A stretch of 64,000 nt of DNA from Acidobacteriota bacterium (GTDB lineage: Bacteria; Acidobacteriota; Terriglobia; Bryobacterales; Bryobacteraceae), in NCBI GenBank assembly GCA_018268935.1, contig JAFDVS010000051.1:3535-67534 (forward strand), in the 5' to 3' direction. The notes beneath the pieces are model-generated. The model worked only from the letters and a program-made list of their open reading frames with translations. It did not search any database and was not told the DNA's origin. Positions 8,702 through 15,311 of the stretch are shown piece after piece; positions within the stretch are counted from its first letter, which is position 1, and the number at the start of each line of letters is the position of its first letter. The translations under genes were made by a program, and so were the position numbers.

Positions 8702-9898
8702 TCAGCTCTGGTCCTCCGTGGGCTTCGAATTCATCGACGCAAGAAACGCGCTCACATCCGTCACCAACCCAATTGGCCGCGGCAGCGAAGGCAGTTTACG
8801 GTAATGCATCTGAATCCCCAGCGTACGCTCATAACTGCGCACCGTCGCACGCTCAATCGGAGTCACAAATGTCCAGGAAGCGCCACGCGCGCCCGCCCGC
8901 CCTGTCCGTCCCACCCGGTGAATGAAGTTCTCCGGTTCCTGCGGCAGATCGTAGTTCACCACATGCGCGATGTTGTCCACATGGATCCCGCGAGCCGCGA
9001 CATCCGTCGCCACCAGCACCCGGTACACTCCGTCCTTGAAGCCCTGCAGCGATGCATTCCGCTGGCTCTGCGACCGGTCGCCGTGGATCGCGGCCACCTT
9101 GTGCCGCCCGCGCTGCAGGAATTTCGTCAGCCTTTCAGCGCCTTCTTTAGTGGCGACGAAAACAAGGAAAGAACCCTTTTCGTGTTTCAGCAAATATTCC
9201 AGCAAATCGAACTTCGAGCCTTGCGCCACTTCGTACCCAAACAGGTCGATCTTGCTTGCCGTTTCCGCGCACGCCTCCACTGCGATTCGCACCGGATCAT
9301 GAACGTAGCTCGCCACCAGCCCCGCCACCGATGGCTCCATCGTCGCCGAAAACAACATCGTCTGCCGTTTCGCCGGAACCTCGTCAAAAATGATCCGCAG
9401 CGACGGCAGGAACCCCATATCCAACATCCGGTCCGCTTCGTCCAGAACCACCGTCGTCGCGCCGGAAAGATCAATCAGCCGCCGGTCCAGATAATCACAC
9501 AGCCGGCCCGGCGTCGCAATCACCACCTCGGCCCCGGCCTTGATATCCCGCAACTGGTGGCCTTCCCCCATGCCGCCCACCACCACCGCGGTCCGGATGT
9601 GCATGCCATGGGCTAACTGCCGGAATGCCGCGTCAATCTGAATCGCAAGTTCCCGCGTCGGCGTGAGAATCAACGCCCGCACGGCCTTCTTGCGGGGCAC
9701 CGCGGCCAGCGCCTCAATCAAAGGAATGGAGAATGCCAGCGTTTTGCCCGTCCCGGTCTGCGCTGTCGCCACCACGTCGCGCCCTTCCATCAATGGCGGA
9801 ATGGCCTGCGCCTGCACCGGCGTCGGCGTGACAAATTCGTGCTTATCGAGGTTCTTCCGCAATGCGGAGCACAGATTGAGTTCGGAAAATGATTGCAT
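8702..9898 (-). CDS. DEAD-box ATP-dependent RNA helicase (RhlE-like)
   Basis: This 398-residue helicase has all the family motifs: Q motif (F..L.L, then TPTPVQAQAIP), motif I AQTGTGKT, Ia PTRELAIQ, Ib TPGRL, II LDEADRMLDMGF, III SAT, and VI HRVGRTGRAG. It has only a short basic tail, so it is a core-size RhlE-type enzyme expected to unwind structured RNA or assist ribosome assembly. I use the ATG at 9898 (MQSFSELNLCSALRKNL), which is where the family normally begins; a TTG at 9922 would add eight residues. It lies directly upstream of greB. Confidence 0.9.
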   Translation of the reverse strand: MQSFSELNLCSALRKNLDKHEFVTPTPVQAQAIPPLMEGRDVVATAQTGTGKTLAFSIPLIEALAAVPRKKAVRALILTPTRELAIQIDAAFRQLAHGMHIRTAVVVGGMGEGHQLRDIKAGAEVVIATPGRLCDYLDRRLIDLSGATTVVLDEADRMLDMGFLPSLRIIFDEVPAKRQTMLFSATMEPSVAGLVASYVHDPVRIAVEACAETASKIDLFGYEVAQGSKFDLLEYLLKHEKGSFLVFVATKEGAERLTKFLQRGRHKVAAIHGDRSQSQRNASLQGFKDGVYRVLVATDVAARGIHVDNIAHVVNYDLPQEPENFIHRVGRTGRAGARGASWTFVTPIERATVRSYERTLGIQMHYRKLPSLPRPIGLVTDVSAFLASMNSKPTEDQS

Positions 9899-10032
9899 CG
9901 ATCGAGTTCGATTGTTCCGCAACGAACCGGAACACGGTTGCTTTCCAGGATAGCAAGCATCGATGCAGACTTCCTCGGGCCCGCGCTTCCGTGATAAACT
10001 CCTCGCATCCTGCCTCGCGAGGAGCGAACCCC

Positions 10033-11622
10033 ATGAAATCGAAAAAGCCGAAATCCACTTCCGTCATGAACCGTCGCCAGATCTTTCTCGCTGGCGCATC
10101 CACCGGAGTTGCCAGTCTATTCAGCCCGCAGGCCGCCATCGGCGCCCCCATCCCCAAGCCCCGTGCCAACGGCCCGGGTGCGTACACCCAGTTCGGTGTC
10201 AAACCCTTCATCAATTGCACATCAACCTATACGATCAATGGCGGATCCGCGATGCTCCCCGAAGTAATCGAGGCTATGAACAGCGCTTCCTACTACCCCG
10301 TAAACATCGACGAGTTGATGGAAGGCGCAGGCAAACGCATCGCGGAACTCCTCCAGGTAGAGGCAGCCATGGTCAGTTCCGGAGCGGCCGGAGCCATCAC
10401 CTGCGCCACGCTCGCCTGTGTCGCCGGTGGCGACCCCGAAAAAATGCAGCAGCTTCCCGACACCACTGGCATCAAAGGCGAAGTCATCGTTCCCCGCTGG
10501 TCACGCAGCGTGTACGATCATGCCGTCCGCAGCACCGGCATGAAGATGATCGAGGTCGACACGCTCGATGATCTCGAGAAAGCCTTCGGCCCCCGCACCG
10601 CCATGGCCACCGGACAAGTCAACCTCGCCTCCGAAGGGAATCCCTTCACGCTCGAACAGTTCGTCGCCGTGGCGCACAAACACGGCGTTCCCGTCGTCAT
10701 GGATGTCGCCGACCGCCTCCCCCTGGTGCCCAATCCCTACATCTCCCGCGGCGTCGATCTCGTCGCCTACTCCGGCGGCAAAATCATCCGCGGACCCCAG
10801 ACCGCCGGTATGCTGGTCGGACGCAAGGATCTGGTGGCTGCCGCATTCATGAACAGCGCTCCACACCACGCCTTCGCCCGCGCCATGAAGGTCAGCAAGG
10901 AAGAAGTGGTTGGGATGGTCAAAGCGATTGAGCTGCTGCGAACCGGAAAGCGTAATCGCGATGCCGAAGATGCCGAGTGGCGTGCCTGGTTCCGCCATAT
11001 CACTGACACGCTCACCAGGATCCCCGGTGTCTCCGGTGAGATCATCGAACCAAAAGACAAGCAGTATTACCCAACCATGAAAGTGGTTTGGGATCCTCGC
11101 AAACTCGGCATCACCGCCGGCGAGATCGGCAAGCAACTGCTCGACGGTGAACCGCGCATCATGACCCACGCCGGACTGAAGGAAGGCGATCTGTCCAACG
11201 AAATGTTGTTGCGCCCTGCCGCCATGTGGCCGGAAGAGTACAAGGTCGTCGCCGATCGGCTGTACGAAATCCTCAGCAAAGCCCCCGCTCCCCGTGAGAA
11301 ACCACAGCGTGCGAAACCTTCGGGCGACGTGGCCGGTCTCTGGGAGTCCGTGATCCACTTCAAAGTGGGATCAGCCCGTCACTCCTTCTACCTCGATGCG
11401 AAAGGCAACAACCTCAGCGGCCAGTACACGGGCAGGCTCGTGAAAGGCGCGCTCAAGGGTCATCTCGACGGCAACAAAGTCGAGTTCTCCAGCAGCGGAA
11501 AGTTCGAGGGAACGTCGCTCCAGTACACCTACAAAGGCACCTTCGATGGCAGCCGCATGTCCGGCGTTGTCGATCTCGGCGAATACGGCGCGGCGAACTT
11601 CACCGCTACGCGGAAAGCGTAG
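10033..11622 (+). CDS. Tat-exported SelA-like PLP enzyme with C-terminal beta domain
   Basis: This 529-residue protein starts with a twin-arginine signal (NRRQIFLAGASTGVASLF), so it is predicted to be exported folded. Residues about 50-420 form a PLP-dependent fold type I domain of the SelA/D-glucosaminate-6-phosphate ammonia-lyase-like family. It has the glycine-rich VSSGAAGAI segment, DVADRLPL, and the PLP lysine K250 in SGGKIIRGPQ. The last roughly 100 residues (from GDVAGLWESVIHF) look like an added beta-sandwich with repeated G/Y/T strands. A Shine-Dalgarno GAGGAG lies about eight bases before the ATG. Exported relatives occur in acidobacteria; the substrate is unknown. Selenocysteine synthesis is unlikely for an exported protein. 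Confidence 0.8.
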   Translation: MKSKKPKSTSVMNRRQIFLAGASTGVASLFSPQAAIGAPIPKPRANGPGAYTQFGVKPFINCTSTYTINGGSAMLPEVIEAMNSASYYPVNIDELMEGAGKRIAELLQVEAAMVSSGAAGAITCATLACVAGGDPEKMQQLPDTTGIKGEVIVPRWSRSVYDHAVRSTGMKMIEVDTLDDLEKAFGPRTAMATGQVNLASEGNPFTLEQFVAVAHKHGVPVVMDVADRLPLVPNPYISRGVDLVAYSGGKIIRGPQTAGMLVGRKDLVAAAFMNSAPHHAFARAMKVSKEEVVGMVKAIELLRTGKRNRDAEDAEWRAWFRHITDTLTRIPGVSGEIIEPKDKQYYPTMKVVWDPRKLGITAGEIGKQLLDGEPRIMTHAGLKEGDLSNEMLLRPAAMWPEEYKVVADRLYEILSKAPAPREKPQRAKPSGDVAGLWESVIHFKVGSARHSFYLDAKGNNLSGQYTGRLVKGALKGHLDGNKVEFSSSGKFEGTSLQYTYKGTFDGSRMSGVVDLGEYGAANFTATRKA

Positions 11623-11659: not shown

Positions 11660-12463
11660 ATGACCTGGGTGAATCTGGAAGGTCGCGCGTTTTGGATGCT
11701 CTTCGTCGCTGCGTTCCTTGCCGTGGCAGTGTGGGAATCCTATCAGGCGAGGCGCGAACTCACCACACCCGCGGAGCGCAGGTGGAGCCGCCACGGACTC
11801 CTTTTCGCGATCTCTTCCATTGCCCAGGCGTTTCTGTTTCGCGTCAGTCCCGTGGCGCTGGCCATGGCAGTGGAAGCCAGTTCCTTCGGACTCTTGAATC
11901 GGCCATGGATTCCTTTCGCCCTACGCTGTCTGATTGCCGTTCTGGTGTTGGATCTTTCGCACTACGTGACACATCGCGCCTTTCACTCAATCTCCTGGCT
12001 GTGGCGGGTTCACGAAGTGCATCACTCCGACCCCGATTATGATGTGTCCACCGCTGCCCGCTTTCATCCGTTGGAGGTAATCCTCACGCAAGGATGCAAT
12101 CTCGGGCTGGTGATGTTGCTCGCGCCACCCGCCGTTGCCGTCTTTATCGCAGAGATGATGGGAGTGGTGGTGAACATCATCGTGCATGCGAATGTTTCCC
12201 TCCCGGGTCGCGCGGACCGCTTCATCCGGGCCGTATTCGTCACACCCAATATGCACCGCATCCATCACTCCGTGGAATTGGCGGAGCAATCGGCAAACTT
12301 CGGCCAGGCATTCTGTTGGTGGGACCGGCTGTTCGGCACTTACTTACACGATGCAGCCGCCGGTGAGCAGGCACTATCCACTGGGATCAGATGCAGACAA
12401 GGCGAGGACACACTAAGCCTTCGGCACCTCTTGGGTGCACCGTTCCAGGCACAGCGACGCTAA
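11660..12463 (+). CDS. Sterol desaturase/fatty acid hydroxylase superfamily protein
   Basis: This 267-residue integral membrane protein carries the histidine clusters that bind the di-iron centre: HYVTHRAFH (HX3HX3H), HEVHH (HX2HH), and HRIHH near the C-terminus. Membrane segments lie at about 12-28, 46-75, 85-105 and 140-180. It would use O2 to hydroxylate or desaturate a lipid or isoprenoid. The gene begins 37 bases after the PLP enzyme on the same strand and may be in its operon. It opens the stretch with relaxed strand skew (to about 15.5 kb). Confidence 0.85.
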   Translation: MTWVNLEGRAFWMLFVAAFLAVAVWESYQARRELTTPAERRWSRHGLLFAISSIAQAFLFRVSPVALAMAVEASSFGLLNRPWIPFALRCLIAVLVLDLSHYVTHRAFHSISWLWRVHEVHHSDPDYDVSTAARFHPLEVILTQGCNLGLVMLLAPPAVAVFIAEMMGVVVNIIVHANVSLPGRADRFIRAVFVTPNMHRIHHSVELAEQSANFGQAFCWWDRLFGTYLHDAAAGEQALSTGIRCRQGEDTLSLRHLLGAPFQAQRR

Positions 12464-12487: not shown

Positions 12488-12640
12488 CTAGCGCTTACGG
12501 CGTCCGCGCAGTACCATGATGGCCCCGCCCAGCAGCGTCAATGCTCCAGCCGCTGAGGTGCCGTTGATCTCCGGCGTGGCTGGAGTTCCGGCAAAAGCGA
12601 TGAGGGTCATCCCGAGGAGAGCAATTGTCAGTTTGAGCAC
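12488..12640 (-). CDS. Minimal VPEID-CTERM-type exosortase substrate, 50 residues
   Basis: The small gene starts at a GTG preceded by AGGAAG and encodes a 50-residue peptide: signal-like hydrophobic N-terminus (residues 2-17), a motif TPEIN at 22-26, a hydrophobic helix at about 30-44, and a basic tail RGRRKR. This is the tripartite layout of PEP-CTERM-type sorting signals, closest to the VPEID variant that I recall being paired with exosortase E/protease fusions. Only a few residues separate the presumed signal cleavage site from the sorting motif, so there is practically no mature domain. It lies 116 bases downstream of, and on the same strand as, the exosortase E gene, which supports the pairing. 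Too short for routine gene calling. Confidence 0.75.
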   Translation of the reverse strand: MLKLTIALLGMTLIAFAGTPATPEINGTSAAGALTLLGGAIMVLRGRRKR

Positions 12641-12756
12641 GATTCTTCCTGCTTTCTTTGTTTTCCGCGGAGGATGGCCATACGGCCGGCTAACAACGCC
12701 CCAGTGTTGCATGCATCCTCAAAGGCAGATTGGCGCTAGCATATCACAGTTTGTAA

Positions 12757-14421
12757 TCACCACAGATGCCAGGTTCCCGTTGCCAGAACGTAACCGGCTA
12801 GCAGCGCGTTGGTAGTGGCATGCGCGAGAACCGCATCGCCGAGGCGCCCGCTGCGCTTGGCGGCGAAGGCGTACATCACGCCCGCCATCGTGCCCGCAAG
12901 CCAGCGATCACCGTGCATCAGGCCAAACAGCACGGAGGAGATCGCTATCGCCACGGAATGGACACGGAGATACGATATCTCTTCAAAGTGGGATCCCATC
13001 AGGCGGCGCATCGCGAATCCGCGAAAGGCCAGTTCCTCGGCCACTGGCGCTGCCACCACTGCGCCCAGCGTCCGAAGGACAATCCAACACGCCTGCACCA
13101 AAGCGGAAGCGCTGGCCAGCGCGGCGGGCATCCCAATGCGCTCAGCCGTCGGTTTCACCAAGGGCTCCATGGCAATCCAAAGAGCAAAGACCGCGATGCC
13201 AATGGCGACCCCAAGCCATCCGCATCGCCAATCCACACTGGAGTAACTTCGCCGCAGCAGCCACAGGGTGATCAGAGCGGCAAACAAACGCAGCGAGTAG
13301 ACCCATTCGAAGCCTCCCGACATCGCTTGCGAAATCATCCCGGCTGCGATGATCGCCAGAAAGGGCAGCAGGTATGCGGCCGTGGGATTCTCCATCTCCG
13401 CACTTCCGTGTTGTAGCTGGTGTGCTCGCTGGTCCACCGAAAACCATGGCAGCCGCCGCGCGGCGACCGCCAAGCCGAATGCCACCGAGTTGAAGGCGAT
13501 CCATCCGGCCTGAGAGTGGAAGCCGCCAACCGCCACATCTCGGGCGCCCGCGTTCCCAATCAGAATGAGCGTTGCGATGCGCGCGGAATTGAGGAAGAAC
13601 AGGATCAATACACCCGCCGGGACCAGAATCAGGCTATGCGGGAAGCGCACCTCATGGCGAAACAATATCATCCATACGATGGCGAACACGATCAACAACC
13701 CCGCTCCTTCGAGTCCGGAACATTCCGGCGCAATGGCGACGGCGAAGCGCGAGGTTCCGATTCGCATTCGCTCCGGTTGCACCTGCATGTCTGTTACGAA
13801 TGGGCTGAGGAAGAGTTTCACCAGAGAGTATGTCAGGCGGGTCGCGGGGGGCCACAGGGCCCAACTCATCGCCCCGGCCACGCACGCGGCAGCCGACGCC
13901 ACCATCGCTTGTAGCCACAGCAGTCCCGTGCTGGCCACGAGATCGGCCCAATGCCGGTACGGAGCCACCGCGAAGACCGCCGATGCCGTCGCAGCCACGG
14001 CCGACAACGCCCACAGAATGGCGAGCATGTCGAAAGAAAGCCATTCGATGGTTCGGCTGTAAAGGGCGGTGGACAGGGCTGCGAATATCGCAATCGACAC
14101 GCCATGCAGCGCCAGCAACGGGCGATGGATTGGAGTGGTGGAGGCTTCCATCGCGATGCGCACCAGCGTGACGCGGTGTCTCAGATACCCAAACGTCGCA
14201 AACAGAGCCGCGAAGCCAATGATGCCCCGTACAATCCAGGCTCCCCATTGGGCGATGAAGTGACCCAGGACGCTGTCCCTCTGACGCAGTGTTTCGCCGT
14301 CGAGAAACAGGGACGCGGCCAGCGCTTCGATCAGCAACACAGCCGCCGGCAGCAGGATGCGAATCAGCCTTCGATCGAGCGCTGTTTCCTCCACGAAATG
14401 GACTTCACCGTTCATCCGCAT
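12757..14421 (-). CDS. xrtE: Exosortase E fused to CAAX-type membrane protease
   Basis: This 554-residue polytopic protein joins two membrane enzymes. The N-terminal part has the exosortase transpeptidase triad: C234 in APECSGLEG, R281 in NSARIATL and H302 in GGFHSQAGW. The C-terminal part has CPBP (CAAX protease) motifs: the Glu pair E462-E463 in AEELAFRGF, H503 in LMHGDRW, and H534 with N538 in AHATTNAL. This is the layout of exosortase E/protease of the VPEID-CTERM system. It should cleave and transfer the C-terminal signal of the neighbouring 50-residue protein in the inner membrane. Its ATG overlaps the stop of the upstream RluA-like gene by one base. The + strand beneath it is not C-biased, unlike most of the window. 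Confidence 0.88.
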   Translation of the reverse strand: MRMNGEVHFVEETALDRRLIRILLPAAVLLIEALAASLFLDGETLRQRDSVLGHFIAQWGAWIVRGIIGFAALFATFGYLRHRVTLVRIAMEASTTPIHRPLLALHGVSIAIFAALSTALYSRTIEWLSFDMLAILWALSAVAATASAVFAVAPYRHWADLVASTGLLWLQAMVASAAACVAGAMSWALWPPATRLTYSLVKLFLSPFVTDMQVQPERMRIGTSRFAVAIAPECSGLEGAGLLIVFAIVWMILFRHEVRFPHSLILVPAGVLILFFLNSARIATLILIGNAGARDVAVGGFHSQAGWIAFNSVAFGLAVAARRLPWFSVDQRAHQLQHGSAEMENPTAAYLLPFLAIIAAGMISQAMSGGFEWVYSLRLFAALITLWLLRRSYSSVDWRCGWLGVAIGIAVFALWIAMEPLVKPTAERIGMPAALASASALVQACWIVLRTLGAVVAAPVAEELAFRGFAMRRLMGSHFEEISYLRVHSVAIAISSVLFGLMHGDRWLAGTMAGVMYAFAAKRSGRLGDAVLAHATTNALLAGYVLATGTWHLW

Positions 14422-15311
14422 TAGCAGGAATGTCCCTGTGGCAAAGCCGCCTCCAGATGGATTCTTTCTCCGCTGATCGGGTGGTTCAACTTCAGATACT
14501 GCGCGTGCAGGAGATAGCCTCCATCGCCGGGCAGCCCAGGGAGATTGTCCAGTGGCTGACCCGTCATTCCGTACAGAGGATCGCCGGCCAGTGGATGCCC
14601 GATGAATGCCAGATGGATTCGGATCTGATGCGCCCGGCCCGAGTTCAGGCTTACCTCAAAGGTGGTGGTGCTGGTAGTGCGTGAGATCACTCTCGCCAGT
14701 GACTTCGACGGTTTGCCTTGCGCGCTGGCGGCCCACACCAAACCAAGACGCGGGTGCGGTACCAGCCCGATCGGCGCCACGATTTCGTACTCGTCTTGCT
14801 GTGCAACGTTTTGCGCCAATGCCCGGTAGATTTTTTGAATGTTGGGTGTGTTCCAGTTTGCGGATAGATGAGCCGCCGCCTGCGGTGTCTTGGCGAAGAG
14901 TACGATGCCGCTCGTGCCGCGGCCCAAACGGTGGACCGGATTCGCACAGGGAGTGATCGCTTGCACCAGCCGTAAAAGCGTATTTTCCAGAAAGCCGCCG
15001 GCCGGCAGTGTGGGCAGCCCGCTGGGTTTGTTCACCGCCAACAAATGCTCGTCTTCAAACAGAAGTTCGAAATGCCGCGGGCAGTCTGGTTCGACCCACG
15101 CTGCGCGATTCCACACCAGCGTTTGGCCCGCAATGACCCGTTCGCCTCCAGTCGCAGTGACCCCGTTCAGCGTGACTTCGCCGTTATCCAGTCTTTGTTG
15201 CCAGGTTTCCGGAGTTGAGTGCGAATAGAGGCTTGCCAGGTGCGAAAGCAGACGTTGCCCATCGTGCTTGCCGCTGATGCGGGTGGTGTAGGCATAGCCC
15301 TGATTGAGCAT
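14421..15311 (-). CDS. RluA-family pseudouridine synthase-like protein, catalytic Asp replaced
   Basis: The protein (296 residues from the ATG at 15311) matches RluA-type RNA pseudouridine synthases: an S4-like N-terminal region, FEDEHLLAVNKPSGLPTLP, and a C-terminal GRAHQIRIHLAFIGHPLAGDPLYG segment. The active-site motif normally reads HRLDRxTSG; here it is HRLGRGTSG at residues 127-135, so the aspartate that attacks uridine is glycine (codon GGC). Similar Gly versions are known in some eukaryotic organellar family members, so this may be a distinct subfamily rather than a dead enzyme. A GTG at 15359 behind GGAAGAAGG is an alternative start. The stop overlaps the exosortase start. Confidence 0.75.
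   Translation of the reverse strand: MLNQGYAYTTRISGKHDGQRLLSHLASLYSHSTPETWQQRLDNGEVTLNGVTATGGERVIAGQTLVWNRAAWVEPDCPRHFELLFEDEHLLAVNKPSGLPTLPAGGFLENTLLRLVQAITPCANPVHRLGRGTSGIVLFAKTPQAAAHLSANWNTPNIQKIYRALAQNVAQQDEYEIVAPIGLVPHPRLGLVWAASAQGKPSKSLARVISRTTSTTTFEVSLNSGRAHQIRIHLAFIGHPLAGDPLYGMTGQPLDNLPGLPGDGGYLLHAQYLKLNHPISGERIHLEAALPQGHSC

Follow-up and report, generated by a model that had tools for sequence, protein, structure and literature searches.

A predicted exosortase E/CPBP protease fusion, its 50-residue PEI[DN] peptide and a linked FA_hydroxylase-family gene in Acidobacteriota

Described sorting systems and the fused enzyme

The closest described system is exosortase E/VPEID-CTERM of the Rhodobacterales (TIGR04162/TIGR04161), in which the same fused enzyme is accompanied, at or near xrtE, by a short tail protein (57-88 aa) with PEI[DS], a helix and a basic end. 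EpsH-CAAX protease fusions were already noted in 2006 (PMC1569441). In our literature search, VPEID-CTERM was not found as a term, and exosortase E was rarely named. The classical PEP-CTERM/exosortase (EpsH) system has a homologous catalytic core and the tripartite C-terminal signal in common with the system examined here. Dedicated two-gene enzyme-substrate pairs with a CPBP protein in C-terminal sorting are represented by myxosortase MrtX/MYXO-CTERM and by MrtJ/JDVT-CTERM, the latter being a precedent for such pairing (PMC11980579). MrtJ and MrtX are stand-alone CPBP proteases with Cys in the motif; our case differs in that the CPBP domain is joined to an exosortase and the motif lacks Cys. 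Substrates of the archaeosortase ArtA are lipidated at the C-terminus, and the enzymes responsible were traced through a gene for lipid synthesis next to artA (PMC7157517). ArtA with PssA/PssD resembles the present system in its exosortase superfamily membership and its adjoining lipid-biosynthesis gene, but its substrates are large and of the S-layer type, and its lipid enzymes are phospholipid synthases rather than an FA_hydroxylase. The acceptor of bacterial exosortase substrates is an open question in the field, on which the system described below bears.

The window, a stretch of 64,000 nucleotides from contig JAFDVS010000051.1 of an acidobacterium (Bryobacteraceae), encodes XrtE, a protein of 554 aa, at 12757..14421 on the minus strand. 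Its identity as exosortase E, proposed in an earlier sequence-only reading, is borne out by TIGR04162 (exosortase E/protease; 221.2 bits, cut-off 150), together with PF09721 (37.2 bits, cut-off 25.7) and PF02517 (60.8 bits, cut-off 22.4). Within 12757..14421, the exosortase domain covers approximately residues 59-322 (C234/R281/H302) and the CPBP glutamic protease domain approximately residues 446-540 (E462/E463/H503/H534/N538). All the catalytic residues named in that reading are present, and the Cys/Arg/His exosortase triad and the CPBP EE..H..HxxxN pattern lie on a single chain. Aligned over 21 homologues, C234, R281, H302, E463, H534 and N538 do not vary, while E462 is E in 20/21 and H503 is H in 19/21; proteolytic/transpeptidase activity is predicted for XrtE.

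Positive-inside charge alternation gives 15 predicted transmembrane helices with the N-terminus inside. This charge-based topology puts C234 and H302 in predicted periplasmic loops, and E462/E463, H534 and N538 in the predicted inner (cytoplasmic) half of the membrane; such an arrangement on opposite sides suggests that the exosortase cuts from outside and the CPBP site acts from inside. The AF2 model (pLDDT 84) gave no meaningful match in a fold search against the PDB (best Z 5.0, helical bundles), nor did the XrtE profile match any PDB chain by sequence. At 14419-14423 of the window, the stop codon of a pseudouridine synthase gene overlaps the XrtE start (TAATG), which suggests translational coupling; the pseudouridine synthase is absent from the conserved neighbour families at relatives' XrtE loci. 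A homologue in genome G209 (L042 6001-7452) has E462 replaced by A, and no tail match was found at its locus or in its genome. CPBP function was possibly lost there together with the substrate, in this single case.

The 50-residue peptide and its family

A peptide of 50 residues with a signal, a TPEIN motif, a helix and a basic tail had been described beside XrtE in the sequence-only reading. Its gene lies at 12488..12640 on the minus strand; it starts with GTG and is preceded by AGGA. Along that strand follow a predicted signal peptide, VLKLTIALLGMTLIAFA (12590..12640), a five-residue stub, GTPAT, from the predicted signal peptidase site to the motif (12575..12589), the sorting motif PEIN (12563..12574), and a C-terminal helix with a basic tail, GTSAAGALTLLGGAIMVLRGRRKR (12491..12562); signal peptidase sites were placed by the simple (-3,-1) rule. 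N- and C-terminal helices thus stand on either side of GTPATPEIN, followed by RGRRKR, and the AF2 model has two helices around a short hinge, the C-terminal one at 27-48. A scan for promoters and terminators around the gene found none.

A GTG start and the lack of a TIGR04161 match are what a spurious ORF beside XrtE might show. Yet the tail profile built without the window peptide scores 49.3 bits (5e-13) on it, with the next window ORF at about 10 bits and 2,000 shuffled sequences reaching 9.6 bits at most; a profile from Gammaproteobacteria alone gives 43.9 bits. Homologous peptides are also under purifying selection (of seven pairs, five have a dN/dS between 0.10 and 0.22, and the other two are very close and uninformative). 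Because of the leave-one-out score, set against the shuffles, the peptide is, judged from its sequence, a real and conserved gene, and the spurious ORF, already refuted, has a negligible probability.

The assignment to VPEID-CTERM fared differently. The sequence-only reading had made its case depend on a match to that model, and taken literally it fails: neither the peptide itself (no match to TIGR04161, cut-off 33 bits, at E≤1) nor its locus in a whole-genome search was recognised. Homology to VPEID-CTERM members is clear through relatives, by the leave-one-out and gamma-only profiles; 20 of 28 short homologues match TIGR04161 at E≤0.1 (best 1.9e-8), although mostly weakly. By the model, the peptide stands outside TIGR04161, and by homology it falls in a sister group. 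It has no match to TIGR02595 (PEP-CTERM) at E≤1 either, and its locus is absent among the PEP-CTERM matches of the genome. An LPXTG anchor (TIGR01167) scored 17.3 bits, above the cut-off of 15.9, with only profile positions 12-34 matched; this assignment was rejected because the peptide has no LPXTG motif and the match comprises the helix and the basic end.

The source genome (87% complete, 4.5% contamination) holds one tail only, since the tail profile search gave a best score of 52 bits and a next of 15, so that no other protein of this genome has this tail, in line with the earlier reading. Its classical PEP-CTERM system is separate, with a second exosortase on contig C8 and about 110 PEP-CTERM matches in larger frames, mostly 200-300 aa. 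In this soil acidobacterium, sortase and protease are joined in one membrane protein, and the sole substrate recognisable by sequence is a 50-residue peptide that has hardly anything to display.

The pairing was examined in 200 genomes of the order, with XrtE counted above cut-off and up to 40 tail candidates per genome scored (the relaxed search of XrtE genomes, with up to 150, gave nearly the same result). All 38 XrtE genomes have the tail, as against 5/162 of those without XrtE (Fisher p 8e-36, the genomes being related and not independent), and among these five, G085 has a frameshifted XrtE and G193 a partial XrtE match. In G085, the frameshift splits XrtE (L161 11-1388), whereas neither the peptide gene nor the hydroxylase gene is disrupted. 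Co-occurrence with XrtE, a mark of VPEID-CTERM, is thus shared by the acidobacterial tail. Most XrtE genes (35/41) have a tail within 2 kb. Conversely, 47 of 91 tails are beside XrtE, in variable gene order. Of 37 homologous loci in named genomes, most have one to five peptides next to XrtE, which may precede it, follow it or lie on the other strand; loci lacking the peptide include contigs ending at XrtE, L012 (a broken remnant only) and L042. Relatives carry up to about seven peptide genes per genome, many of them distant from XrtE. At L021 4841-5845, XrtE is directly preceded by five tandem, divergent micropeptide genes.

The family has more than 100 members. Some 90 tail-bearing ORFs in 43 genomes are, but for about seven, 44-61 aa long, as measured from automatically picked starts, and most have a Shine-Dalgarno match; their layout is a signal peptide, about 2-6 residues, PEI[DN], a helix and RGRRK. 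Alignment of 107 peptides shows P and E of the motif to be invariant and A10, G16, R22 and R24 to be kept in 93-95%. An A at -6 from PE in 57/107 homologues marks a probable signal peptidase site, which would leave about five residues ahead of the motif, and the linker there carries little information (A, V, P, T, S, G). A relaxed search of the 37 other XrtE genomes turned up no larger protein whose tail was convincing.

In Gammaproteobacteria, peptide stubs of about 19-37 residues occur, and the same tail also stands at the end of larger, otherwise ordinary secreted proteins (roughly 200-290 aa), and so serves to tag substrates in that class. In Alphaproteobacteria, plasmids with annotated xrtE have substrates of 57-88 aa at or near it. 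Small substrates are therefore normal for XrtE, with those of Acidobacteriota at the extreme. The puzzle raised in the earlier reading, a dedicated enzyme for a peptide with little mature part, is a real one, and it is most acute in Acidobacteriota, where about 2-6 residues precede the motif, as against a mature part of roughly 9-35 residues in Rhodobacterales. Multicopy peptides, an FA_hydroxylase partner and a window peptide without a TIGR04161 match further set the acidobacterial system apart from that of Rhodobacterales.

Since the tail is by far the best conserved part and the two active sites are predicted to face opposite sides of the membrane, the product might be the hydrophobic, cationic helix itself, cut free from both faces. 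A recognition signal would produce equal conservation, and the same tail on larger secreted proteins elsewhere argues against this explanation, which we consider very unlikely.

In some XrtE substrates of alpha- and gammaproteobacteria (L202 3178-3372, L203 3190-3399, L207 2161-2376, L034 7670-7885 and L043 1406-1621), two Cys separated by a few residues immediately precede VPEI[DS] or APEID, and the pair suggests a small disulphide loop, as read from sequence. Such loops, the tandem copies (five in L021) and the very short mature part would suit a signalling peptide, freed as a short oligopeptide by signal peptidase and XrtE and leaving the cell as a pheromone. The neighbours examined include no conserved receptor, kinase or importer, and the acidobacterial linker is poor in information, making a pheromone improbable.

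The FA_hydroxylase-family gene

A membrane di-iron oxygenase of the FA_hydroxylase family is encoded at 11660..12463 on the plus strand, convergent with the peptide gene across a 24-bp gap. It scores 111.2 bits against PF04116 (cut-off 31), and its His boxes, HX3H, HX2HH and HX2HH, are invariant in 12 sequences. A gene of this same family recurs in the flanks of XrtE-unlinked peptides, 19 of 44 such tails having a member within 1 kb. The 13 best members in the 200 genomes (319-440 bits) each have a tail at a distance of 20-321 bp, mostly in convergent orientation and also at loci without XrtE, while the three next-scoring members are in tail-less genomes; the profile was trained mostly on peptide-adjacent members, which biases the scores but not the positions. 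By a rough estimate from search counts, about 0.01 chance adjacencies would be expected against these 13. In the hydroxylase tree, the adjacency label changes 5 times versus 11.8 in shuffles, and is thus clustered. At XrtE loci the gene occurs in the window, L016, L020 and L161, and at L210 one more remote peptide is adjoined by a different FA_hydroxylase.

The FA_hydroxylase is a recurrent third partner, a linkage new here. Only about 12 of the 43 genomes with a tail have it next to a peptide, so that it cannot be needed in all of them, and none was seen at gamma- or alphaproteobacterial loci. No other conserved family besides the peptide and the hydroxylase was found among XrtE-locus neighbours. 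An ABC exporter near remote peptides was also considered and set aside, having only generic ATPase similarity. The module had been proposed to be self-contained; its dedicated pairing holds, but two genes make it incomplete, with the hydroxylase recurrent and up to about seven peptide genes per genome, many of them remote.

If the peptide were simply a very small surface protein of an ordinary VPEID-CTERM pair, as the annotated alphaproteobacterial loci and the TIGR04161 matches of 20/28 relatives would allow, the hydroxylase linkage would be incidental. With all 13 best hydroxylase members adjoining a tail, and only about 2-6 mature residues throughout the clade, this seems unlikely. Stable linkage to two membrane enzymes could also mean that the peptide is an uncleaved small membrane protein, both helices staying in place, which serves XrtE or the hydroxylase as docking subunit or regulator rather than as substrate, and the hinged AF2 model and information-poor linker are consistent with this. 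We judge it rather unlikely, as the tail has a full tripartite sorting signal, ends secreted gammaproteobacterial proteins of about 200-290 aa, and occurs in several divergent copies per genome.

A proposed route for the peptide

We tentatively favour, at somewhat under an even chance, the view that Acidobacteriota have a variant of the exosortase E system whose enzyme acts on micropeptides without cargo and on nothing else. In this variant: the peptide would be exported by Sec, and signal peptidase I would remove its N-terminal signal; the C-terminal helix and RGRRK would keep it membrane-held, leaving PEI(D/N) on the periplasmic side; the predicted periplasmic site, C234/R281/H302, would cut at this motif or immediately behind it; what is left of the peptide, roughly 7-10 residues, would pass to an acceptor, for which a membrane lipid is the likeliest candidate; the CPBP site, in the predicted cytoplasmic half, may trim or destroy the freed tail; and the neighbouring FA_hydroxylase-type oxygenase may hydroxylate the lipid acceptor or the lipid-linked product. 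Transfer to a lipid is proposed because of the ArtA precedent and the hydroxylase linkage. That the pair is kept together, often with the hydroxylase added, suggests that what is made may be a very small peptide, perhaps joined to a lipid, and not an ordinary surface protein. The low information of the linker counts against this scheme, as no specific peptide product is evident from it.

A bolder form, which we regard as doubtful, would be a ribosomal lipopeptide pathway, with XrtE as the lipid ligase for peptides of about 7-10 residues and a dedicated FA_hydroxylase tailoring the lipid, yielding short surface or secreted lipopeptides of soil Acidobacteriota. Since the sorting system persists without cargo, the processed peptide or the processing must be useful. 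With one enzyme, one 50-residue substrate and a candidate lipid-modifying partner, the system is minimal, small enough for reconstruction in a laboratory host and for its whole product to be read by mass spectrometry.

Two further neighbours were observed. Rhodobacterales xrtE loci have a large upstream protein (L202 110-3007, L203 1130-3151, L205 1-2084 and L207 592-2028) with similar C-termini (QPF...F...DCLC or DCLIL), possibly a further partner there. Beside the module in the window, at 9889-11622, lies a SelA/aminotransferase-like PLP enzyme whose N-terminus is apparently of the twin-arginine type and which has an additional region at its C-terminus.
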